Assembly: GCF_030816965.1 (NCBI RefSeq)
Contig: NZ_JAUSYQ010000002.1
Coordinates: 9,786,001-9,850,000, forward strand
DNA: 64,000 nt
Source of the DNA: Streptomyces canus
GTDB lineage: Bacteria; Actinomycetota; Actinomycetes; Streptomycetales; Streptomycetaceae
Direction of reading: 5' to 3'
Below the pieces are notes generated by a model. It searched no databases. It saw nothing but the letters and a program-made list of their open reading frames with translations, and was not told the origin of the DNA. How positions within the stretch are numbered: the stretch's first letter is position 1; the number at the start of each line of letters is the position of its first letter. Both the position numbers and the translations under genes were made by a program. This document shows, in pieces, positions 33,978 to 47,081 of the stretch.

Positions 33978-35066
33978 ATGACTGAGGCGACGCCGGACAC
34001 GGTCGGCGCTGCGGACGCAAGCGGCGCGCCCGCCGACGAGACACCCACGATCCACATTCTCTGGATCAACGCCGGCCTGAGTTGCGACGGTGACTCGGTC
34101 GCGTTGACCGCGGCCATGCAGCCCAGCATCGAGGAGATCGTGCTCGGTGTGCTGCCGGGCCTTCCGAAGATCGCCGTCCACTGGCCGCTCATCGACTTCG
34201 AGTGCGGTCCGGTCGGCGGCTCGGACACGTTCATCGAGTGGTTCTTCAAGGGGGAGCGGGGCGAGATCGACCCGTTCGTCCTGGTCGTCGAGGGCTCCAT
34301 CCCCAACGAGGCGATCAAGCCCGAGGGCTATTGGTGCGGCTTCGGCGACAACCCGGAGACCGGCCAGCCGATCACCACCAGCGAGTGGATCGACCGGCTC
34401 GCCCCGAAGGCTCTGGCGGTCGTCGCCATCGGCACCTGCGCCACCTACGGCGGCATCCACGCCATGGCGGGCAACCCGACCGGCGCGATGGGCGTGCCGG
34501 ACTACCTCGGCTGGGACTGGAAGTCCCACGCGGGCATCCCCATCGTGTGCGTCCCCGGCTGTCCGATCCAGCCCGACAACTTCTCCGAGACGCTCACCTA
34601 CCTGCTCTACCAGGCGACCGGCGCGGCCCCGATGATCCCGCTGGACGACAAGCTGCGCCCGACCTGGCTGTTCGGGGCCACCGTGCACGAGGGCTGCGAC
34701 CGCGCGGGCTACTACGAACAGGGCCAGTTCGCCCTGTCGTACGACTCGCCGACGTGCCTGGTCAAGCTCGGCTGCTGGGGCCCGGTCGTCAAGTGCAACG
34801 TGCCCAAGCGCGGCTGGATGAACGGGATCGGCGGCTGCCCCAACGTCGGCGGCATCTGCATCGCCTGCACCATGCCCGGCTTCCCCGACAAGTTCATGCC
34901 GTTCATGGACGAGCCCCCCGGCGCCAAGGTGTCGAGCAACGCCAGCGGAGCGTACGGCGCCGTGGTCCGCAAGCTGCGGTCGATCACGGCCAGGACGGTG
35001 GACAAGGAGCCCAAGTGGCGCCGTACCGGAGACAGGATCACCACCGGATACCGACCCCCGTGGTGA
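33978..35066 (+). CDS. hhyS: group 1h [NiFe]-hydrogenase small subunit
   Basis: A 362-aa electron-transfer subunit of an actinobacterial-type high-affinity hydrogenase. It carries three iron-sulfur clusters that take electrons from the active site in the large subunit. The proximal-cluster motif reads LSCDGDS: Cys36 is followed at +3 by Asp39 where most hydrogenases have a second Cys. Further ligands appear in GTCATYGG, VPGCPIQP, and the Cys-rich C-terminal part (CLVKLGCWGPVVKCNVPKRG, then CPNVGGICIACTMPGFPDKF). There is no Tat leader, so the enzyme should be cytosolic. ATG 33978 follows AGGAGG. No cytochrome b anchor is encoded nearby. Confidence 0.95.
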   Translation: MTEATPDTVGAADASGAPADETPTIHILWINAGLSCDGDSVALTAAMQPSIEEIVLGVLPGLPKIAVHWPLIDFECGPVGGSDTFIEWFFKGERGEIDPFVLVVEGSIPNEAIKPEGYWCGFGDNPETGQPITTSEWIDRLAPKALAVVAIGTCATYGGIHAMAGNPTGAMGVPDYLGWDWKSHAGIPIVCVPGCPIQPDNFSETLTYLLYQATGAAPMIPLDDKLRPTWLFGATVHEGCDRAGYYEQGQFALSYDSPTCLVKLGCWGPVVKCNVPKRGWMNGIGGCPNVGGICIACTMPGFPDKFMPFMDEPPGAKVSSNASGAYGAVVRKLRSITARTVDKEPKWRRTGDRITTGYRPPW

Positions 35067-35152: not shown

Positions 35153-36937
35153 ATGGCACCGACGACGAAGGCGGCCGGCGACGGCAGCGGCCTGGTGGAG
35201 ATGGCCTGGGACCCGATCACCAGGATCGTGGGCAGCCTGGGCATCCACACGAAGATCGACTTCAAGCAGAAGCGAGTCGCCGAGTGCTACAGCACCTCGT
35301 CGGTCTTCCGCGGCTACAGCGTCTTCATGCGCGGCAAGGACCCCCGCGACGCCCACTTCATCACCAGCCGCATCTGCGGCATCTGCGGCGACAACCACGC
35401 CACCTGCTCGGTGTACGCGCAGAACATGGCGTACGGCGTGAAGCCCCCGCATCTGGGCGAGTGGATCATCAACCTCGGCGAGTCCGCGGAGTACATGTTC
35501 GACCACAACATCTTCCAGGAGAACCTGGTCGGGGTCGACTACTGCGAGAAGATGGTCAAGGAGACCAACCCCGGCGTCCTCGAACTCGCCGAGCGCACCG
35601 AGGCCCCGCACGCAGCCGAGCACGGCTACCGCACGATCGCCGACATCATGCGCTCGCTCAACCCCCTGGAGGGCGAGTTCTACCGCGAGGCCCTCCAGGT
35701 CAGCCGGTACACGCGCGAGATGTTCTGCCTGATGGAGGGCCGCCATGTGCACCCCTCCACGCTCTACCCGGGCGGCGTCGGAACCATCGCCTCCGTGCAG
35801 CTCTTCACGGACTACCTCAGCCGTCTGATGCGCTACGTGGAGTTCATGAAGCGCGTCGTGCCCCTCCACGACGACCTGTTCGACTTCTTCTACGAGGCGC
35901 TGCCCGGGTACGAGGAAGTGGGCCGCCGACGTGTCCTGCTCGGCTGCTGGGGCGCGCTCAACGACCCCGAGTACTGCGACTTCACCTACGCCAACATGAC
36001 GGACTGGGGCCGGCGCATGTTCGTCACCCCCGGCATCATCGTCGACGGCAAGCTCGTCACCAACGACCTCACCGAGATCAACCTCGGCATCCGCATCCTG
36101 CTGGGCAGCTCGTACTACGAGGACTGGGAGGGCCAGGAGCAGTTCGTCACCCATGACCCGCTCGGCAACCCGGTGGACCCGCGCCACCCGTGGAACCAGC
36201 ACACCATCCCCACCCCGCAGAAGCGGAACTTCGACGACAAGTACAGCTGGGTCATGTCCCCGCGCTGGTTCGACGGCAAGGACCACCTCGCCCTGGACAC
36301 CGGTGGGGGCCCCATCGCCCGCCTGTGGTCGACCGCCCTGTCCGGTCTCGTCGACATCGGTTACGTCAAGGCCACCGGCCAGAGCGTGGTCATCAACCTG
36401 CCCCGCACTATGACCAAGCCGGAGACCACCTTCGAGTGGAAGATCCCGAAGTGGTCCAACGCGCTGGAGCGCAACCGTGCCCGCACGTACTTCCAGGCGT
36501 ACGCCGCCGCCGTCGCCCTGCACTTCGCGGAGAAGGGACTGGCGGAGGTCCGCGCCGGACGCACCCAGACCTGGGAGAAGTTCGAGGTTCCGGACGAGAG
36601 CATCGGGGTCGGCTTCACCGAGGCGGTCCGCGGTGTCCTCTCCCACCACATGGTGATCCGGGACGGCAAGATCGCCAACTACCACCCGTACCCGCCGACC
36701 CCCTGGAACGCCAGCGTCCGGGACACCTACGGCACGCCCGGCCCGTACGAGGACGCCGTGCAGAACACGCCCATCTTCGAGGAGAACACCCCGGAGAACT
36801 TCAAGGGCATCGACATCATGCGCACTGTCCGCAGCTTCGACCCCTGTCTGCCCTGTGGCGTCCACATGTACGTCGGGGGCGGCAAGACGGTGAAGTCGAT
36901 GCACGTGCCCACCGGCCTGAGCGGACTGGGCGGATGA
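35153..36937 (+). CDS. hhyL: group 1h [NiFe]-hydrogenase large subunit
   Basis: A 594-aa catalytic subunit holding the Ni-Fe(CN)2(CO) centre that splits H2. The N-terminal L1 motif is RICGICGDNHATC (Cys75, Cys78) and the C-terminal L2 motif is DPCLPCGVH (Cys565, Cys568, His571). A 23-residue tail after His571 should be cut off by the endopeptidase at 40194 once nickel is inserted. The length and L1/L2 form fit the actinobacterial group. ATG 35153 follows the small subunit by 86 bp, and its stop overlaps the next gene by 4 nt, starting a chain of coupled genes. Confidence 0.96.
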   Translation: MAPTTKAAGDGSGLVEMAWDPITRIVGSLGIHTKIDFKQKRVAECYSTSSVFRGYSVFMRGKDPRDAHFITSRICGICGDNHATCSVYAQNMAYGVKPPHLGEWIINLGESAEYMFDHNIFQENLVGVDYCEKMVKETNPGVLELAERTEAPHAAEHGYRTIADIMRSLNPLEGEFYREALQVSRYTREMFCLMEGRHVHPSTLYPGGVGTIASVQLFTDYLSRLMRYVEFMKRVVPLHDDLFDFFYEALPGYEEVGRRRVLLGCWGALNDPEYCDFTYANMTDWGRRMFVTPGIIVDGKLVTNDLTEINLGIRILLGSSYYEDWEGQEQFVTHDPLGNPVDPRHPWNQHTIPTPQKRNFDDKYSWVMSPRWFDGKDHLALDTGGGPIARLWSTALSGLVDIGYVKATGQSVVINLPRTMTKPETTFEWKIPKWSNALERNRARTYFQAYAAAVALHFAEKGLAEVRAGRTQTWEKFEVPDESIGVGFTEAVRGVLSHHMVIRDGKIANYHPYPPTPWNASVRDTYGTPGPYEDAVQNTPIFEENTPENFKGIDIMRTVRSFDPCLPCGVHMYVGGGKTVKSMHVPTGLSGLGG

Positions 36938-37452
36938 GCGCGGTCAGCTCCGCGGAGCAGACCGGGCGCCGGGTCGAGGAAATCCTCGACAGGCTGGCCG
37001 AGAGCGGCGACCCGGCCGCCGCCGCGGCGGCGGAGGAACTCGTCCGCTCTCTCATGGACTTCTACGGTGCCGGCCTCGCCCGCATCCTCCACCTGCTGTC
37101 CGGCGCGCCCGGCGAAGCAGCGGCACGCCTCCTGGGCGACGACCTGGTCGCGAGCCTGCTGGTCCTGCACGACCTGCACCCCGAGGACCGCGACACCCGC
37201 ATCGCCCGCGCCCTCGACGGGGTCCGGGAACACACCCTGGAGGTGGTGGGCTTCGACGACGAGAGCGGCACCCTGACGGTGCGGGCCCGGGAGGCCGGCG
37301 GCTGCGGTTGCGGCTCCGGCACGGGTGTCCGGGAGGCCGCGGAGGCAGCGCTCGCCTCCTTCGCACCGGAGGTCAGGGCGGTCGACGTACAGACCGCCCC
37401 CGCGGGGCCGACGCTCCTCCAGATCGGCACGGCACCGGCGGGGGCCCGATGA
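36934..37452 (+). CDS. NifU-like C-terminal domain protein of the hydrogenase operon
   Basis: A 172-aa soluble protein. The N-terminal half is helical and acidic (residues 1-90). The C-terminal half resembles the iron-sulfur scaffold domain of NifU, with a glycine/cysteine motif GGCGCGSGTG near residue 125. Such a domain could assemble or donate clusters to the small subunit, but the Cys spacing is shorter than usual and the function here is not established. ATG 36934 overlaps the large-subunit stop by 4 nt, and its stop overlaps the next ATG, so stoichiometric production with the hydrogenase is likely. Confidence 0.8.
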   Translation: MSAVSSAEQTGRRVEEILDRLAESGDPAAAAAAEELVRSLMDFYGAGLARILHLLSGAPGEAAARLLGDDLVASLLVLHDLHPEDRDTRIARALDGVREHTLEVVGFDDESGTLTVRAREAGGCGCGSGTGVREAAEAALASFAPEVRAVDVQTAPAGPTLLQIGTAPAGAR

Positions 37453-38090
37453 CGGCGTCCCCGGCGACGCGTACGCCCGGCCTGCGGAGGTTCCTCACCG
37501 AGAGGCTCCCGCAGCCCGAACGGTGTGAGCTGTGCGCCGTGGCGGTGGAGGCGGGCCACCGTCATCTCGTCGACACCGAGAAACGCGCCCTCGTCTGCGC
37601 CTGCGCCCCGTGCGCGCTGCTGATGGAGCAGCCGGGCGCCGCCGCGGGCCGCTTCCGTACGGTCCCGGCCCGCTACCTCACCGACCCCGGACACCGCCTC
37701 GACGAGAGCGCGTGGGAGGCGTTGCAGATCCCGGTCGGCGTCGCCTTCCTGTTCCGCAACGCGGCGCTCGACCGGCTCGTCGCCCTCTACCCGAGCCCGG
37801 CCGGAGCCACCGAGAGCGAACTCGAACCGGCCACGTGGACGGACGTCCTCGGTGGCAGCCGCCTCGCCGAACTGCTCGAACCCGACGTGGAGGCGCTGCT
37901 GCTGCGCCGCACCGCCGGCCGCTTCGAGTGCCACCTCGTACCCATCGACATCTGCTACGAACTGGTCGGCCGTATGCGCCTGTTGTGGCAGGGCTTCGAC
38001 GGCGGAGCCGAGGCCCGCGCCGCGCTGGACGCGTTCTTCGCGGACGTCGCGCGACGGGTCCGGCCACTGGGCGAGGTGGGTCACCCGTGA
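37449..38090 (+). CDS. DUF5947-like protein of the hydrogenase operon, Cys/His motif
   Basis: A 213-aa soluble protein of unknown function. A Cys/His cluster lies at about residues 26-56: CELC, then HRH, then CACAPC. Its spacing could hold a [2Fe-2S] centre or zinc. The remainder is mixed alpha/beta with no recognised catalytic motif (ALQIPVGVAFLFRN, then HLVPIDICYELVGRMRLLW). The gene starts at ATG 37449, overlapping the NifU-like gene by 4 nt, and its stop overlaps the following GTG. A cofactor-binding partner or electron-transfer protein for the hydrogenase is a reasonable guess, not shown. Confidence 0.8.
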   Translation: MTASPATRTPGLRRFLTERLPQPERCELCAVAVEAGHRHLVDTEKRALVCACAPCALLMEQPGAAAGRFRTVPARYLTDPGHRLDESAWEALQIPVGVAFLFRNAALDRLVALYPSPAGATESELEPATWTDVLGGSRLAELLEPDVEALLLRRTAGRFECHLVPIDICYELVGRMRLLWQGFDGGAEARAALDAFFADVARRVRPLGEVGHP

Positions 38091-38770
38091 CCGAGTTCTC
38101 CTTCGCCTGCACCGGCGTCCGCGCCGACAGGTACGCCGCCGGACCGACCCTCGTCTTCCGGCTGCGCGTCACCGCCGGCGACAACGCGCGCGTGCACGCC
38201 CTCGCGTTGCGCTGCCAGATCCGCATCGAACCCGCCCGCCGCGGTTACGAGCCCGCCGAGGCCGACGGCCTCGCGGACCTCTTCGGCGAGCGCTCACGCT
38301 GGGGCAGCACGCTCCAGCCGGTGCAGTTCGCCCAGGTCTCGGTCATGGTCCCGAGCTTCACCGGCGAGATCGAGACCGACCTCGTCGTGCCCTGCACCTA
38401 CGACATGGACATCGCCGCGACCCGCTACCTCACCGCCCTCACCGACGGCGAGGTGCCCCTGCTGATGCTCTTCTCCGGTACGGCGTTCACCGGAGATGGC
38501 GGTTTCCAGGTGGAGCCCGTCCCCTGGGACCGCGAGACGGCCTTCCGGATGCCCGTCACCGCCTGGCGGGAGATGGTCGAGCAGCACTTCCCCGGCTGCG
38601 GCTGGATCCGGCTGCCCCGCGACACCATGGACGCCCTCCTCGCCTACCGCTCCCGGCACGCCCTGCCCTCCTGGGAGGCGACCGTCGCGGCGCTGCTGGA
38701 GGGTGCCGACCCGCCCGCGCACGACCCGCTGCGCGCCCTCACCGCCACCACCGGAAGGACCGATCCGTGA
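38087..38770 (+). CDS. DUF6084-like protein of the hydrogenase operon
   Basis: A 227-aa soluble protein of unknown function, predicted mostly beta. It opens with a beta-sandwich-like region (TLVFRLRVTAGDNARVHALA, then CQIRIEPARRGY) and has no metal motif or signal peptide. Phrases such as LLMLFSGTAFTGDGGFQVEP, then DRETAFRMP, suggest a conserved domain seen in other actinobacterial hydrogenase clusters. It may be a structural or assembly partner. The start GTG 38087 overlaps the previous stop by 4 nt and its end overlaps the next GTG. Confidence 0.8.
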   Translation: MTEFSFACTGVRADRYAAGPTLVFRLRVTAGDNARVHALALRCQIRIEPARRGYEPAEADGLADLFGERSRWGSTLQPVQFAQVSVMVPSFTGEIETDLVVPCTYDMDIAATRYLTALTDGEVPLLMLFSGTAFTGDGGFQVEPVPWDRETAFRMPVTAWREMVEQHFPGCGWIRLPRDTMDALLAYRSRHALPSWEATVAALLEGADPPAHDPLRALTATTGRTDP

Positions 38771-40197
38771 CCGTGACCGCGTTCGCCCCCGAGACCGAGG
38801 AGCGCTTCGCTCTCGCCCGGCAGGTGGCCGACGCCGTCCTCTTCGAGGGCTATGTGCTCTACCCGTACCGCGCCTCGGCGGCCAAGAACCGGCTGCGCTG
38901 GCAGTTCGGCGTGCTCGTGCCGCCCGCCTGGGGCGCCGAGCGCGAGGAGCACGACTTCCAGCACACCGAATGCCTGATGGAACCGAAGGCCGGGGCGACC
39001 CTCTCGGTCGAGGTGCGCTTCCTGCACGCCCGACGGCGCACGGTACAGCGGGCCCGTCCGGACGGCGGCTTCGACACGGTGCCCGAACTCCGCCTCGACG
39101 ACCGGGTGTTGGTGCCCTGGGACGAGGGAAGCGAGGAGCGCGTCGAGGTGGTCGCGTCGGTGGACGAGCTCCTCGGCGACGGCGTCATGTATCCCTTCCG
39201 GCTCCCCGCCCGCGAGGACACCGAGCCGGTCGTGGACGAGGCCGGCCGTGCCGTCGGCCGACTGGTCCGGCGCTGTGAGGAGATCAGCGGGGCGGTACGG
39301 CTCTGCGTCCGCGAACTCGACGGCCCCTACCGGACCATGCGGCTGACCGCCGTCGTCGAGAACACCAGCGACTGGTCACCGCCCGAGGGCCGCGGCGCGG
39401 ACCGGGAGGCGGCGCTGCCGCACTCCCTGGTGGCCACCCACCTCCTCATGGCCCTCAGCGCCGGATCATTCCTGTCGATGACCGATCCGCCCGAGTGGGC
39501 GAAGGGCGCGGTCGCCGCCTGCCGCAACCTGCACACCTGGCCCGTACTCGCGGGCGAACCCGGCCGTGCCGACCTCGTGCTGTCCTCGCCGATCATCCTG
39601 CAGGACCATCCGGCCATCGCGCCGGAGAGTCCCGGCGCGCTCTACGACGCCACCGAGATCGACGAGATCCTCGCGCTGCGCACCGCGGCCCTCACCGACG
39701 AGGAGAAGCGCGAGGCCCGGGGCACGGACGAGCGGGCGGCCGCCGTGATCGAGCTGGCGGACTCGATGCCGCCCGAGGTTCTGGAGCGTCTGCACGGGGC
39801 GGTGCGCAGCCTGCGTGAGGTGACCGGTCCCGGCCCCGCCGCCCCGGACGGCGGCTTCCCCGACGAATACGGGGTGATGCGGCCGGACACCCCCTGGTGG
39901 GACCCCGCGAGCGAGGAGGGCTTCGACCCGGAGCAGGACCGGGTGGTCGTGGACGGCCGTTCGGTGGGCAAGGGCAGCCGCGTCGAGCTGCACCCGGGCC
40001 TGCGGCGCACCGACGCACAGGACATCTTCCTGCGGGGCCGCACCGCGAAGGTCGAGGCGGTGCTGCACGACGTGGACGGCGGGGTGCACCTGGCGGTCAC
40101 CGTGGAGGGCGACCCGGGCGCCGACGTCCGCCGCGAGCAGGGACGGTTCCTGTACTTCCAGCCCGACGAGGTCACACCGCTGGAGGACGACGTATGA
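38767..40197 (+). CDS. 476-aa uncharacterised protein of the hydrogenase operon
   Basis: This is the longest of the unknown proteins. I do not recognise it from a characterised family. It is soluble, acidic and has no signal peptide. The N-terminal 230 residues look like an alpha/beta fold (ADAVLFEGYVLYPYRASAAK, then NRLRWQFG); a middle segment (SSPIILQDHPAIAPESPGAL, then YDATEIDEIL) and a C-terminal beta domain (VEAVLHDVDGGVHLAVTVEG, then FQPDEV) follow. Only a few cysteines are present. GTG 38767 overlaps the previous stop by 4 nt and its stop overlaps the protease ATG. Constant linkage to the hydrogenase suggests an assembly or regulatory role. Confidence 0.8.
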   Translation: MTVTAFAPETEERFALARQVADAVLFEGYVLYPYRASAAKNRLRWQFGVLVPPAWGAEREEHDFQHTECLMEPKAGATLSVEVRFLHARRRTVQRARPDGGFDTVPELRLDDRVLVPWDEGSEERVEVVASVDELLGDGVMYPFRLPAREDTEPVVDEAGRAVGRLVRRCEEISGAVRLCVRELDGPYRTMRLTAVVENTSDWSPPEGRGADREAALPHSLVATHLLMALSAGSFLSMTDPPEWAKGAVAACRNLHTWPVLAGEPGRADLVLSSPIILQDHPAIAPESPGALYDATEIDEILALRTAALTDEEKREARGTDERAAAVIELADSMPPEVLERLHGAVRSLREVTGPGPAAPDGGFPDEYGVMRPDTPWWDPASEEGFDPEQDRVVVDGRSVGKGSRVELHPGLRRTDAQDIFLRGRTAKVEAVLHDVDGGVHLAVTVEGDPGADVRREQGRFLYFQPDEVTPLEDDV

Positions 40198-40745
40198 ACC
40201 CCTCCTCGCAGTCAGGCCCCAGGACCCTCGTCGCCGGCATCGGCAACATCTTCCTCGGGGACGACGGCTTCGGCGTGGAGACCGCCCGCCGGCTCGCCGA
40301 GCGCGACCTGCCCGGACACATCGAGGTCGTGGACATCGGGGTGCGCGGGGTGCACCTCGCCTACCAGCTGCTGGACGGCTACGACACCCTCGTCCTCGTG
40401 GACGCCACGGCACGCGGCGAAGCCCCCGGCACGCTGTACGTGATCGAGCACGACGTCGGCGGAGGGAGCCCTTCACCTCCCGCCCCCGCGCTGGACGGCC
40501 ACCGGATGACTCCCGACACGGTCCTGGCACTGCTGGGCACCCTGTGCGCCGGGACCGGCGGTGAGTCACCACGCCGCGTCCTGGTCGTGGGATGCGAACC
40601 GGCCTCGGTGGACGAGGGCATCGGTCTCAGCCCGCCGGTGTCCGACGCCGTACCGGAGGCCGTCCGACTGATTGAAAGGCTGCTGAGGCAAGGGGAGCCG
40701 GGAGAGTCCGCGCCGCGGGCCACGGCCGGTGGGATCTCGACATGA
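40194..40745 (+). CDS. hydrogenase maturation endopeptidase (HyaD/HybD type)
   Basis: A 183-aa nickel-dependent protease expected to remove the C-terminal tail of the large subunit after nickel insertion. The typical fold is visible from the start: VAGIGNIFLGDDGFGVE (the Glu is the first nickel ligand), VVDIGVRG (Asp, second ligand), and VLVVGCEPASV. A C-terminal ligand His is probably in DGHRMTPDT. ATG 40194 overlaps the upstream gene by 4 nt, ending the coupled chain that began at the large subunit. Confidence 0.9.
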   Translation: MNPSSQSGPRTLVAGIGNIFLGDDGFGVETARRLAERDLPGHIEVVDIGVRGVHLAYQLLDGYDTLVLVDATARGEAPGTLYVIEHDVGGGSPSPPAPALDGHRMTPDTVLALLGTLCAGTGGESPRRVLVVGCEPASVDEGIGLSPPVSDAVPEAVRLIERLLRQGEPGESAPRATAGGIST

Positions 40746-40756
40746 GGAGAGACGGG

Positions 40757-40861
40757 ATGAAGAAGATCGTCATCGGCGGAGCGGCCGTCGCCGCCCTGGT
40801 CGCTGTCGTCGCCGAGGTGCTTCCCGACCTCCGGCGCTACCTGCGGATCCGACGGATGTGA
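40757..40861 (+). CDS. 34-aa single-helix membrane microprotein (DUF6893-like)
   Basis: A very small gene with a clear ribosome site (GAGGAG) upstream of ATG 40757. The product has one hydrophobic helix (residues 4-24, [20 protein letters not shown]) between MKK and a basic tail ending DLRRYLRIRRM. This looks like a single-pass membrane peptide with a positively charged cytosolic end. It lies 11 bp after the protease gene and before hypA. In-frame ATG 40742, which overlaps the protease stop, would give five extra residues. I suspect it helps tether or stabilise the cytosolic hydrogenase at the membrane; that is inference. Confidence 0.65.
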   Translation: MKKIVIGGAAVAALVAVVAEVLPDLRRYLRIRRM

Positions 40862-41002: not shown

Positions 41003-41401
41003 ATGCACGAGATGTCCGTCGCGCTGGCCGTCGTCGACCAGGTCGAAGAGGCCGCCGCACGGGCCGAGGACGTCACGGCGGTGCGATCGGTACGGCTCCA
41101 GGTGGGCGAACTGGCCGGCGTCGTACCCGATGCGCTCGCCTTCTCCTTCGAACTGGCCTGCGCCGGAACCCTGCTGGAAGGCGCCGAACTGATCACAGAA
41201 ACGGTGCCGGGGCGGGCCCGCTGCACCCCCTGCGCACACGAATGGGCCGTCGGCATGCCGCCCCGGCTGACCTGCCCCGCGTGCGGCGGTACGCAGACCG
41301 ACCTGCTCACGGGCCGGGAACTGCAGATCCTCGACGTGCATTGGGAAGACGGCGGCCCCACGCACCCGCTCACCCGCGAACCGATCTCCGAGGAGCGCTG
41401 A
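41003..41401 (+). CDS. hypA: hydrogenase nickel incorporation protein HypA
   Basis: A 132-aa metallochaperone that passes nickel to the large subunit with HypB. The N-terminal MHEMS supplies the Ni-binding His2 and Glu3. The zinc site is CTPC (about residue 74) with a second pair CPAC (about residue 93). Length and layout are normal. The start ATG 41003 follows GGAC/GGAG. The 141 bp before it hold no gene, so a separate promoter is possible. It is followed directly by hypB. Confidence 0.93.
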   Translation: MHEMSVALAVVDQVEEAAARAEDVTAVRSVRLQVGELAGVVPDALAFSFELACAGTLLEGAELITETVPGRARCTPCAHEWAVGMPPRLTCPACGGTQTDLLTGRELQILDVHWEDGGPTHPLTREPISEER

Positions 41402-41404
41402 ACC

Positions 41405-42166
41405 ATGTGCCGTGTCGTCGACCTGCGGCAGGCCGTACTCGCGAAGAACGACGCGAGCGCCCACGAACTGCGCGCGCACCTCGCGGCGCGAGGCATCGCG
41501 ATCGTCAATCTGCTGTCCAGTCCGGGCAGTGGCAAGACCGCGCTGCTGGAGCGCGAACTGCTGCGGGCACGGGAGCGGTCCGTTCCCGTCGCGGCGCTGA
41601 GCGCCGATCTGGCCACCGAGAACGATGCGGCCCGGCTGGCGCGTTCGGGGGTCCCCGTCAAGCAGGTGCTCACCGACGGACTGTGCCATCTGGAGGCGGG
41701 GATGCTCGCCGGGCACCTGGACGGGTGGCTGCCCGACGACACCCGGCTGCTGTTCGTGGAGAACGTCGGCAACCTGGTCTGCCCGGCCTCCTACGACCTG
41801 GGGGAAACACTGAGGGTCACCCTCGCCTCCGTGACGGAGGGCGAGGACAAGCCGCTCAAGTACCCCACCGCCTTCGGCCTCGCCCACCTTGTGGTGGTGA
41901 CCAAGACCGACATCGCGGAGGCCGTCGAGTTCGACGAGGCGGCGTTCCGCGCGCATGTGGAGCAGGTCAACCCCGGAGTCGAGGTGATCCTGACGTCGGC
42001 ACGCCGGGGGCAGGGAGTCGGCGCGCTGCTCGACCGGGCGCTGGCCGCTGTGGACGGCACACCTGTCCACTCACCGGTCATGGCCCGGCAGCCCGATCAC
42101 CACGGTCACGGTCACACGCACACGCAGCCGGAGGCCACCGGCATCATGGCCCACATCCACTCGTGA
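41405..42166 (+). CDS. hypB: hydrogenase nickel incorporation GTPase HypB
   Basis: A 253-aa SIMIBI-class GTPase that drives nickel delivery. The P-loop is SSPGSGKTALLE (about residues 38-49), and TKTD, a guanine-specificity motif, appears near residue 165. The C-terminus is His rich (HHGHGHTHTQ), able to store or bind nickel; in many HypB proteins the His stretch is N-terminal, so this arrangement is less common. It starts 4 bp after hypA, and its stop overlaps the hypF GTG. Confidence 0.93.
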   Translation: MCRVVDLRQAVLAKNDASAHELRAHLAARGIAIVNLLSSPGSGKTALLERELLRARERSVPVAALSADLATENDAARLARSGVPVKQVLTDGLCHLEAGMLAGHLDGWLPDDTRLLFVENVGNLVCPASYDLGETLRVTLASVTEGEDKPLKYPTAFGLAHLVVVTKTDIAEAVEFDEAAFRAHVEQVNPGVEVILTSARRGQGVGALLDRALAAVDGTPVHSPVMARQPDHHGHGHTHTQPEATGIMAHIHS

Positions 42167-44544
42167 GCGGTCCGCAGGTTCCGACCGCCGTCGCCGAGAA
42201 CACCCCACGACGCCGCCGGGTCACCGTCCGGGGAGTGGTACAGGGAGTGGGCTTCAGGCCCTACCTCTACGGCCTTGCCACGGAACTCGCCCTGGCCGGA
42301 CACGTGACCAACACTCCGGAGGGTGTCGTCGCGGAGGTCGAAGGCAGTGCCTCGGCCGTGGCCCGGTTCTGCGACCTGATCGCCGCCCAGGCACCGCCGC
42401 TGGCCCGCGTGGAGTCCGTCCACCACCGGGAGATGCCTCCCGTCGGCGGCACCGCGTTCACCATCCTCACCTCGCGCACCGGCGGACCGGCCCGCACTCT
42501 GGTCTCCCCCGACTCCGCCACCTGCGCCGACTGCCTCGCCGAGTTGGCCGCCCCGGCGGACCGGCGCTACCGGCACCCGTTCGTCAACTGCACTCACTGC
42601 GGCCCGCGCTTCACGATCGTCACCGGCGTGCCGTACGACCGGGCGAACACCACCATGGCCGGCTTCGCGATGTGCCCCGACTGCGCCCGGGAGTACGCGG
42701 ATCCGGCCGACCGCCGGTTCCACGCGCAGCCGGTCGCCTGCCCGGCCTGCGGGCCCCGTCTGCGGCTGGTCCTCGCCCAGAAAGCACGGCTCAGCGATGT
42801 CGAGGGGGCGGACCCGGTCTCCGAGGCCCGCGCGCTGCTGAAGCGGGGCGCGATCCTCGCCGTGAAGGGCCTGGGCGGCTACCACCTGGCCTGCGATGCC
42901 TCGAACCAGGAGGCGGTCGCCCTCCTGCGCCGGCGAAAGGCGCGCGGGAACAAGCCGTTCGCCGTCATGGCCAGGACCGCGGACGACGTCCGTCACCTCG
43001 TCCGGCTGAGCCCCGAGGAGCGGAGCCTGCTCGAAGGCCGGGCCAGGCCGGTCGTCCTGCTGAGGCGGCGTCCGCAGACCGACGGGGATCCCCGGCCCGC
43101 CGAGGCCGTGGCACCCGGCAGCCCCGACCTCGGAGTCATGCTGCCCTACACGCCCGTGCACCATCTGCTGCTCGGTCTGCCCGGCGACCCGGACGGCCCC
43201 CGGCTGCTCGTCATGACCAGCGGCAACCTGTCCGGTGAGCCGATCGTCACCGACGACAACGAGGCACTGGAGCGACTCGCGCACCTGGCCGACGCCTGGC
43301 TCACGCACGACCGGCCGATCCACGTCCCGTGCGACGACTCCGTCGTCCGCGTCTGCGACGGCAAGCCACTGCTGATCCGCCGCTCACGTGGCTACGCCCC
43401 GTTGCCGGTCTCCCTCCCGCTGCCCGTGCGGCCGGCCCTCGCCGTCGGCGGAGACCTGAAGAACGCCTTCTGTCTCGGGGCGGGCCGGCAGGCCTGGCTG
43501 TCGGCGCACATCGGCGACATGGACGACGTCGGCACCCAACGGGCCTTCGAGCGCGCGGAGGCGCAGTTGGAGTCCATCACGGGAGTGCGGCCCGAGGCCC
43601 TGGTCTCCGACCGGCATCCTGGCTACCGCTCCGCCGGATGGGCCGACCGGAACGCGGCGCACCGGCCCGTCGTACGCGTCCAGCACCATCACGCGCACAT
43701 TGCCGCCGCCATGGCCGAGCACGGACTGGACGGCACCCGGCCGGTGATCGGCGTCGCCTTCGACGGCACCGGTCACGGCGACGACGGCGCCGTGTGGGGC
43801 GGGGAGTTCCTGTTGGCGGACTACGACCGCTTCACCCGGTTCGGACATCTCGCGTATGTTCCACTGCCCGGTGGTGACGCCGCGGTGCGCCGGCCGTACC
43901 GCATGGCGCTGGCCCACCTGAGGGCGGCCGGGATCGACTGGTCCGACGACCTCGCCTGTACGACCGCCTGTCCGCCCGACGAACTCCACGTCCTGGAACG
44001 GCAGTTGGAGCGCGGCCTGAACTGTGTCCCCACATCCAGCATGGGCCGGCTCTTCGACGCGGTGTCCTCTCTCGCCGGGGTGTGCCACCGAGCCGGATAC
44101 GAGGCACAGGCCGCTGTCGAACTGGAGGGGGCGGCTCTGCACGCACCGGCCGACGACACCACCGCGTACGCCTTCGCCCTGCACGCGTCGGAGGAGAACC
44201 GGGACGGCGCCGTACGGGCCGATCCGGCACCCGTCCTCGCGGCGATCGTCGGTGACCTGCGTGTGGGTGTCGAGCCTGCCCTGGTCGCCGCGCGCTTCCA
44301 CCGGGGCGTGACCGGCCTGGTGCACCGGATGTGCACGCGGGCGCGAGAGCGGCGCGGGCTGGACACGGTGGCCCTGACGGGGGGCGTGTTCGCCAACACA
44401 CTGCTCTCCTCGGCCTGTGCCGCCTCCCTGCGCGAGGACGGCTTCACGGTCCTGCGGCACCACCTGGTGCCGCCCAACGACGGTGGCCTGGCGCTGGGCC
44501 AACTGATGGTGGCCGCCCGTGCCACCCCCACTCCCACCGAATGA
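42163..44544 (+). CDS. hypF: carbamoyltransferase HypF
   Basis: A 793-aa enzyme that makes the carbamoyl group used for the cyanide ligands of the hydrogenase iron. The domains in order are: acylphosphatase ([19 protein letters not shown], residues 18-100), two zinc fingers (CADC/CTHC and CPDC/CPAC, residues 120-200), YrdC-like nucleotide domain ([20 protein letters not shown]) and Kae1-like C-terminal domain ([15 protein letters not shown], then [18 protein letters not shown]). All expected motifs are intact. GTG 42163 overlaps the hypB stop by 4 nt. Confidence 0.95.
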
Positions 44545-44885: not shown

Positions 44886-46009
44886 AGTACATCGACGAGT
44901 TCCAGGACCCGGAGCTGGCTCGACGGCTCCTCGACGACATCCACGCCACGGTCACGAGGCCGTGGGCGCTGATGGAGGTGTGCGGAGGGCAGACACACAG
45001 CATCATCCGGCACGGCATCGACCAACTCCTGCCGGAGCAGGTCGAGTTGATCCATGGGCCGGGCTGCCCGGTGTGCGTGACCCCGCTGGAGGTCATCGAC
45101 AAGGCCCTGGAGATCGCCTCCCGACCGGAGGTGATCTTCTGCTCCTTCGGTGACATGCTGCGTGTGCCGGGCACCGGACGGGACCTGTTCCAGGTCCGCG
45201 GAGAGGGCGGTGACGTGCGCGTCGTCTACTCACCGCTCGACGCGCTGCGGATCGCCCAGCAGAACCCGGACCGCGAGGTGGTGTTCTTCGGCATCGGCTT
45301 CGAGACGACCGCACCCCCCAACGCCATGACGGTCCATCAGGCCCGGAAACTTGGCATCCCGAACTTCAGCATGCTGGTGTCCCATGTCCGCGTACCGCCC
45401 GCCATCGAGGCCATCATGTCGTCGCCGAGCTGCCGGGTGCAGGGCTTCCTCGCGGCCGGCCATGTCTGCAGCGTGATGGGCATGGGGGAGTACCCGGAAC
45501 TGGCGGAGCGCTTCCGGGTGCCGATCGTCGTGACGGGCTTCGAGCCACTGGACATCCTCGAAGGCGTGCGCCGTACCGTCCGGCAGCTGGAACGCGGTGA
45601 GCACACCGTCGACAACGCCTACGCCCGTGCCGTTCGCGCGGAGGGCAACCCGGCCGCCCGGGCCATGCTGGAGGACGTTTTCGAGGTCACCGACCGCGCC
45701 TGGCGCGGCATCGGGGTGATCCCGCAGAGCGGCTGGCGGCTGGCGCCGAAGTACCGCGCCTACGACGCCGAGCACCGCTTCTCCGTCGACGGCATCCGCA
45801 CCCAGGAGCCGGCCGAGTGCCGCAGCGGAGAGGTCCTGCAGGGGCTGCTCAAGCCGCACGAGTGCGAGGCCTTCGGCACTCTGTGCACGCCGCGTACGCC
45901 GCTGGGGGCCACCATGGTCTCCAGCGAGGGAGCCTGCGCCGCGTACTACCTCTACCGGCGGCTGGACATGCCCGCCACCAAGGCCCAGGAGGCGACCCCC
46001 GTTGTCTGA
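44882..46009 (+). CDS. hypD: hydrogenase formation protein HypD
   Basis: A 375-aa scaffold enzyme on which the iron-cyanide-CO unit is built with HypC and HypE. The conserved motifs are present: [10 protein letters not shown] (Cys near residue 35), [11 protein letters not shown] (Cys pair near residue 62) and the C-terminal cysteines ([19 protein letters not shown]) that bind the [4Fe-4S] cluster. GTG 44882 overlaps the hypC stop. Its last codons overlap the start of hypE, which uses TTG. Confidence 0.95.
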
Positions 46010-47081
46010 CACCACCGATCTCCCCGTCCCCGCCCTGGACGTCGAGGCGTGGACGTGTCCGGCGCCCCTGCGGGACCGGCCGCGGGTCGTCATGGGCCAC
46101 GGCGGCGGTGGAGTGCTCTCCGCCGAACTGGTCCAGCAGATCTTCGCTCCCGCTTTCGGGGGCGAGGTGCTCGCCCAGATGGGTGACGCCGCCGTCCTCT
46201 CCCTGGGCGGTGCCCGGCTGGCGTTCTCCACCGACTCCTACGTGGTGCGGCCGCTGTTCTTCCCCGGCGGAAGCATCGGCGACCTGGCGGTCAACGGCAC
46301 CGTCAACGACCTCGCCATGAGCGGCGCCCGCGCCGCCTACCTCTCCTGCGGATTCATCCTGGAGGAGGGCGTCGAGCTCGATGTGGTCACCAGGGTTTCC
46401 GTGGCGCTGGGGGCGGCCGCGCGCACCGCCTGTGTGGAGGTGGCCACCGGCGACACCAAGGTGGTGGAGGCCGGCCACGGCGACGGGATCTACATCAACA
46501 CCGCGGGCATCGGTCTCGTCCCGGCGGGCGTCGATCTGCGCCCTGAGCGGGTCGTCCCCGGCGACGTCGTGATCGTCAGCGGCGCCATCGGTGTCCACGG
46601 GGTGGCGGTCATGAGCGTCCGCGAGGGACTGGAATTCGGAGTGGAGATCAAGAGTGACTGCGCGGCGCTCGGCGGCCTGGTCGACGCCATGCTCGCCGTC
46701 ACCCCGGATCTGCACGTCCTGCGCGACCCCACCCGAGGCGGCCTGGCCGCCTCGCTCAACGAGATCGCGCAGGCCTCCGGCACCGGGGTGGTCATCCAGG
46801 AACGCGACGTGCCGGTCCCGCCGGCCGTGGCCAACGCCTGCGCCATTCTCGGACTGGACCCCATGTACATCGCCAACGAGGGCAAGCTGGTCGCCTTCGT
46901 TCCGCGTGAGCACGCCGACGCCGTCCTCGGGGCGATGCGCGCCCATCCTCTGGGCGCGGACTCCGTGATCATCGGTGAGGCCGTGGAGGCGCATCCGGGC
47001 ATGGTCGTGGCGCGGACCGGCCTGGGAGGGACGCGGGTGGTCGACCTACCGATCGGGGAGCAGCTGCCGCGGATCTGCTGA
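46002..47081 (+). CDS. hypE: hydrogenase expression/formation protein HypE
   Basis: A 359-aa PurM-like enzyme that dehydrates the carbamoyl group on its C-terminal Cys to the cyanide donor. The protein ends PRIC, giving the required terminal Cys. The ATP-binding motifs ([27 protein letters not shown], then [15 protein letters not shown]) are intact. It is translated from TTG 46002, inside the end of hypD, with AGGAGG about 10 nt upstream. It closes the hyp operon before a hairpin. Confidence 0.94.

Follow-up and report, generated by a model that had tools for sequence, protein, structure and literature searches.

Accessory genes of a group 1h [NiFe]-hydrogenase operon in Streptomyces canus, including a microprotein that is a candidate membrane anchor

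The hydrogenase locus

A 64,000-nt stretch of Streptomyces canus DNA (contig NZ_JAUSYQ010000002.1, positions 9,786,001 to 9,850,000; hereafter the window), which sits in a 10.66-Mb genome, carries the operon of a group 1h [NiFe]-hydrogenase, HhySL, an enzyme class held to be a main sink for atmospheric H2 (PMC7174314; papers given by PMC number are cited from excerpts of their text). Between the large-subunit gene hhyL and the gene for its maturation protease lie four genes, encoding a NifU-like protein, a DUF5947 protein, a DUF6084 protein and a protein of 476 amino acids (aa) that we call X476, and an open reading frame (ORF) for a DUF6893 microprotein comes after the protease (Table 1). A preliminary description of the window had placed the four genes at 36934-40197 with 4-nt overlaps throughout, and these coordinates and all five junctions from hhyL to the protease (5/5 being ATGA or GTGA overlaps of 4 nt) agree. 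The coupled run that it had outlined stands from hhyL to the protease but not in its end point, since the microprotein ORF follows the protease. Pfam bore out the labels DUF5947-like (PF19372, 248.5 bits) and DUF6084-like (PF19562, 324.6 bits; cut-off 25 bits for each), and X476, described as having no recognised family, had none in Pfam or NCBIfam.

In C. necator H16, the HofKG operon on plasmid pHG1 has the same order (large subunit-NifU-DUF5947-DUF6084-X476-protease), and the same five junctions are annotated there as overlaps of 1, 4, 8, 4, and 4 nt, so tight coupling is not particular to the S. canus strain. Among solved structures, hhyL matched one at E 1e-80, namely HofG (5aa5). The best 19-residue hydropathy of HhyS was 1.55, at residue 54, and a C-terminal membrane helix is absent, as for group 1h. 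The operon type is known, and this locus is an unremarkable example of it.

Table 1. Genes of the hydrogenase locus, with positions in the window and the basis of each assignment.
Feature	Position	Strand	Basis
hhyS, hydrogenase small subunit	33978..35066	+	hydropathy scan; no strongly hydrophobic helix
hhyL, group 1h large subunit, 594 aa	35153..36937	+	translation and Pfam
HhyE orthologue, short form, NifU-like, 172 aa	36934..37452	+	position and homology
DUF5947 protein, 213 aa	37449..38090	+	Pfam
DUF6084 protein, 227 aa	38087..38770	+	Pfam
X476, 476-aa protein	38767..40197	+	DrmA-chassis-related N-terminal domain and apparent C-terminal SH3-like barrel
hydrogenase maturation protease, HycI/HyaD type	40194..40745	+	Pfam, NCBIfam
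DUF6893 microprotein	40742..40861 (39 aa) or 40757..40861 (34 aa)	+	Pfam, hydropathy
hypA	41003..41401	+	
hypB, CobW/HypB/UreG domain	41405..42166	+	
hypF	42163..44544	+	
hypD	directly upstream of hypE, end at 46009		
hypE, AIR synthase related domains	46002..47081	+	

Conservation of the accessory genes

Co-occurrence was scored in a phylum sample of 246 genomes, which includes the S. canus genome itself and whose repeated uses are not mutually independent. A large-subunit match of at least 65% identity, at any length, was counted as presence of hhyL and was found in 26/246 genomes. DUF5947 occurred in 23/246 genomes, including 22 of the 26 hhyL-positive ones; DUF6084 in 23 (21 of the 26); and X476 in 24 (22 of the 26). 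Since these three occur nearly only alongside a group 1h large subunit, their association with the hydrogenase is not due to chance. The genomes outside the 26 were those we label G169 (DUF5947, DUF6084, and X476) and G194 (DUF6084 and X476), in which contigs break in or near the operon; among the 26, G104 and G164 have a truncated hhyL and G200 stops at a contig edge.

Gene order was compared in 80 named loci (L numbers), the top 80 among 576 confirmed matches to the large subunit, a set rich in Streptomyces whose phylum labels were assigned in this analysis. All seven genes (those for both subunits, the four accessory proteins and the protease) were present in 69/80 loci from six phyla and in identical order in 67, while two loci of Verrucomicrobiota (L097, L132) had all seven in a different order. 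Ten of the eleven incomplete loci run out with their contig, judged from lengths; the eleventh, L087 from a Planctomyces metagenome-assembled genome (MAG), has no NifU, DUF5947, or DUF6084 gene within its 15 kb. On plasmids, X476 and DUF5947 were found in the same 12 of 72,556 records. Two loci that we take as group 2a, a label assigned in this analysis (L040, L046), have the NifU-like gene and no DUF5947, DUF6084, or X476; NCBIfam assigned no subgroup to a presumed group 2a large subunit. Judged from these distributions, the four genes are a dedicated and old module of the group 1h hydrogenase. The preliminary description had reasoned that their products are made together with the hydrogenase; the overlaps, the co-occurrence and the conserved loci support both a layout for joint production and the attachment of these genes to this enzyme. 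Rare company of these genes with the hydrogenase, which it had named as counting against that view, is clearly not the case, because they co-occur with hhyL across the sampled genomes and the named loci.

The four accessory proteins

It had further been held that none of the four genes has an established role and that nothing corresponding to the mycobacterial relay can be seen. Neither statement holds for the NifU-like gene, which by its position directly 3' of hhyL and by homology (iterative profile search) is an orthologue of HhyE, albeit a short one; HhyE is required in mycobacteria, being essential for Hhy activity in M. smegmatis (PMC6883350). We call it a short orthologue and not a full HhyE, because the same paper, which notes that truncated forms exist, classes such forms as truncated HhyE (PMC6883350). 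The window protein consists of a helical N-terminal half and a degenerate NifU-like domain that holds a C-x-C only and no CxxC, and the C-terminal Fe-S domain with two CxxC is absent. On its own it matched neither NifU nor Rieske in Pfam, while in an alignment of 30 members Pfam NifU was found in 26 (E 0.01) and a Rieske domain in 7, and the HhyE profile matched solved Nfu structures at E 4e-23. A search of the rest of the genome with the mycobacterial C-terminal Fe-S domain gave no good match (best E 0.14). NHL repeats, described from group 2a (Huc) loci (PMC7784904), had no Pfam match at E 1 in any of the four accessory proteins. Two mycobacterial loci (L112, L137), among which the M. smegmatis hhy locus itself is not included, have the accessory order of the window; their HhyE extends into a C-terminal stretch that has two CxxC, whereas that of the window is short, and in them the microprotein precedes the protease, whereas in the window it follows it.

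Among 78 full-length HhyE relatives from the named loci, a CxxC in the NifU half was found in 24, two tail CxxC in 15, and neither in 54, with 9 having no Cys at all in the NifU half; the pHG1 protein likewise has no Cys there. Relatives with neither motif made up 31/37 from Actinomycetota other than Thermoleophilia and 23/41 from elsewhere, so the loss is not confined to Streptomyces. Since many relatives do without the Fe-S motifs, it is unlikely, on these alignments, that the HhyE cluster is a general electron relay of group 1h enzymes; the losses in many Streptomyces, Burkholderiales, and Acidobacteriota loci argue against the relay role favoured for HhyE. Deletion of hhyE in M. smegmatis abolished staining for activity in which an artificial acceptor was used, so that such an acceptor was no substitute for HhyE (PMC6883350), which fits assembly better than a relay alone, and an assembly role is allowed by that paper itself (PMC6883350). 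Of the electron outlet, quinone link and assembly machine that had been suggested for the four proteins, we therefore favour assembly for HhyE. S. avermitilis, which oxidises atmospheric H2 (PMC4767420), likely has the short form too, judged by its relatives.

Only DUF5947, among the four accessory proteins, has an invariant Cys/His set. Its N-terminal ligand set, CxxC-x7-HxH-x10-CxCxxC, comprises five Cys and two His (C26, C29, H37, H39, C50, C52, and C55) and was kept in 73/73 named loci. NCBIfam matched 0/31 DUF5947 relatives, and Foldseek with a DUF5947 model returned nothing informative. That DUF5947 might be a split-off C-terminal half of HhyE was ruled out, since in mycobacterial loci HhyE is long and DUF5947 is nevertheless encoded separately. 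A literature search by the name DUF5947 found no paper, though the protein may have been described under other names.

The DUF6084 alignment contains no invariant Cys or His, and homology between DUF6084 and X476 was ruled out (hhalign probability 0.4%). The best relatives of X476 are in Streptomyces (92-94% identity). Its N-terminal domain is related to the chassis of the phage-defence helicase DrmA, the part of that protein described as a structural chassis (PMC9142583), and its C-terminal domain (~ residues 377-476) appears to be an SH3-like barrel and may be of the PetP or nitrile hydratase beta type. Against the DrmA relation, DrmA was not retrieved when profile A3 was searched against PDB sequences at E 1. 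DrmA of DISARM has RecA helicase domains, whereas X476 had no helicase match in Pfam; at 476 aa and with those domains absent, X476 is not a DrmA, and nothing found here ties it to phage defence. PDB sequence searches with the four accessory proteins and with profiles A3, A4, and A5 gave nothing informative. In one actinobacterial MAG, X476 and the protease are encoded in a single open frame (L107:11793-14741).

The microprotein and the proposed role of the module

The ORF 3' of the protease matches DUF6893 (PF21833) at 53.3 bits (cut-off 24.6 bits). Translation could start at ATG 40742, giving 39 aa and a 4-nt overlap with the protease, or at ATG 40757, giving 34 aa; the latter is favoured because AGGAG lies at 40745-40749. 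The product contains a single membrane helix; its C-terminal motif is PDLRRYLRIRRM. Its best hydropathy was 2.54, as compared with 1.55 or less for the seven upstream products from hhyS on, so that among these eight products a strong membrane helix was found in the microprotein only. A motif scan of 114 loci, many not spanning the site, found such ORFs in 76 and none in reversed sequences, and near the protease the ORF was present in 57/69 loci (56 strict, 1 relaxed) and 0/69 on the opposite strand; the motif was drawn up after ORFs had been seen, and these counts are not independent of those ORFs. Four of the 12 misses near the protease (L138, L140, L129, L095) hold a more distant copy. In ORFs picked with the same motif, positions outside it were also conserved (R at -8 in 79/80 ORFs, P at -12 in 67/80), and the median dN/dS was 0.51 (405 pairs, 24 codons, 29 sequences of Streptomyces and relatives). 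The microprotein was found in several phyla, and on pHG1 its ORF lies between the protease and hypF, missing from the PLSDB gene table, which is itself incomplete. A literature search by the name DUF6893 found no paper, though a description under other names is possible.

The Pfam DUF6893 search, which uses Pfam's own model, was positive in 23/246 genomes. Seven of these lay outside the hhyL-positive set: G143, G174, G169, G194, and three with weak or fragmentary matches. In G143 (L147) and G174 (L148), genomes in which hhyL was not found, DUF6893 adjoins hyp genes, perhaps as a remnant after enzyme loss. DUF6893-like ORFs also stood away from recognised hydrogenase loci in L150, L151, and L152, two of them ending in QRYxQLRDM. 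In G123 and G162 there is a divergent ORF of like build with a C-terminal extension added.

Group 1h enzymes are reported to associate with the membrane, and an anchoring subunit has yet to be identified (PMC13332983, 2026); their affinity falls once the enzyme leaves the membrane (PMC7174314). The microprotein is a good candidate for the tether. We propose that the four genes, the protease and the microprotein form a dedicated accessory module of HhySL as a cytoplasmic enzyme, in which four soluble proteins would assemble it and the microprotein would dock it at the membrane. HhyE (Nfu-like fold), DUF5947 (metal-binding), DUF6084, and X476 (scaffold) would assemble and pass on cofactor-loaded subunits, with hand-over before or at protease cleavage. 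The microprotein would hold its helix in the membrane with a cationic PDIRRYLRIRSM-like tail towards the cytoplasm, an orientation suggested by charge, and would dock the finished enzyme there; the docked enzyme might then reduce menaquinone directly, by analogy with Huc, which reaches the membrane via HucM. This reading as a whole is plausible and we hold it tentatively, placing it slightly short of probable. That DUF6893 supplies group 1h with its missing membrane anchor and with the site where quinone docks, that the HhyE-relay model fails for many of these enzymes, and that X476 and DrmA have a scaffold domain in common is a combination we consider quite possible without calling it likely. 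Three elements appear not to have been described before: the microprotein as an anchor candidate, the loss of HhyE motifs as against the fixed DUF5947 ligands, and the DrmA-like domain of X476.

Several observations weigh against the proposal. HhySL of M. fumariolicum SolV (Hyd-1h), like that of the window a group 1h enzyme, is active and membrane-associated with, as far as the excerpted text goes, neither HhyE nor homologous hypothetical proteins (PMC7174314), and has two other membrane proteins instead (PMC7174314, PMC6688271); since SolV does without it, the module is not required by every group 1h enzyme. The C. necator enzyme, of low affinity, is reported to be kept in the cytoplasm (PMC7174314) in spite of the microprotein ORF on pHG1. 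No microprotein was found in the available DNA of six Thermoleophilia loci, L087, and L100. DUF6893 was present in only 16 of the 26 hhyL-positive genomes, a looser association than that of DUF5947 (22/26), and some copies sit outside hydrogenase loci. Finally, a second set of 24 HhyE relatives, drawn from further sampled genomes and pHG1 and including presumed group 2a loci, lacked both motifs in only 5/24 (19 had the NifU-half CxxC and 14 the two tail CxxC).

Other roles for these proteins were also considered. PHG067 is said to have been proposed by Schafer in 2013 as an electron acceptor in R. eutropha, and from operon order we take both it and MSMEG_2717 to be DUF5947 proteins. DUF5947 could be the immediate electron acceptor, passing electrons through a redox metal site from HhyS to the quinone pool or HhyE, with the others supporting it. 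It alone of the four has the invariant Cys/His set, and homology is reported between MSMEG_2717 and PHG067 (PMC6883350); even so, we regard this role as unlikely. X476 and DUF6084 might instead be permanent structural subunits of a large membrane Hhy complex, as HucM is for Huc. Huc, a high-affinity enzyme that reduces menaquinone analogues, has in HucM both a scaffold and a membrane stalk (PMC10017518), and its operon includes the NifU-like HucE (PMC6883350). The domain that X476 has in common with the DrmA structural chassis and the close co-occurrence of X476 and DUF6084 with HhyL would suit such subunits, but DUF6084 is missing from two Streptomyces loci and the purified SolV enzyme gave two bands, HhyL and HhyS (PMC7174314), albeit from an organism without the module, and we think permanent subunits improbable.

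All of the proteins, the microprotein too, could also be purely maturation factors, with the enzyme binding the membrane peripherally via something else. The microprotein gene mostly adjoins the protease gene, and the Thermoleophilia loci keep the four genes without it, which suits this view; however, cytoplasmic enzymes do not usually have maturation factors that span the membrane, and Hhy is reported to be membrane-associated with its anchor not known (PMC13332983), so that a purely maturational role seems distinctly unlikely to us. The proposed module of assembly proteins and a docking microprotein bears on the membrane route and electron hand-off of group 1h enzymes. A gene of 34-39 aa is easily omitted from gene tables, and recognising it makes the membrane-anchor question testable; the conserved site of DUF5947 and the DrmA-like domain of X476 are two more concrete targets.

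Variant operons were seen among the loci. A second Streptomyces operon type (G123 and G162; L061 and L063) has X476 upstream of hhyS and no DUF6084. In L049 (G028), matches to the NifU-like protein and DUF6084 lie in one open frame, with DUF5947 absent between them and the contig ending just after. L048 (G172) and L042 (G104), of the same genus, are decayed-looking operons, the signs being a shortened X476 with a stop within the match, no protease found nearby, and hhyL remnants, and L087:3111-4244 holds hhyS in three same-frame pieces with stop codons between. Eight acidobacterial loci (L080, L088, L090, L091, L093, L094, L129, and L139) have a second, orphan HhyS-like gene upstream of hhySL. 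The stretch between this gene and hhyS matches a PAS/HisKA_3 sensor kinase and a response regulator found in L129, the only locus in which the domains were read; some kinase matches are partial and the L139 regulator is distant. The orphan HhyS-like gene, kinase and regulator possibly form an H2-sensing unit.

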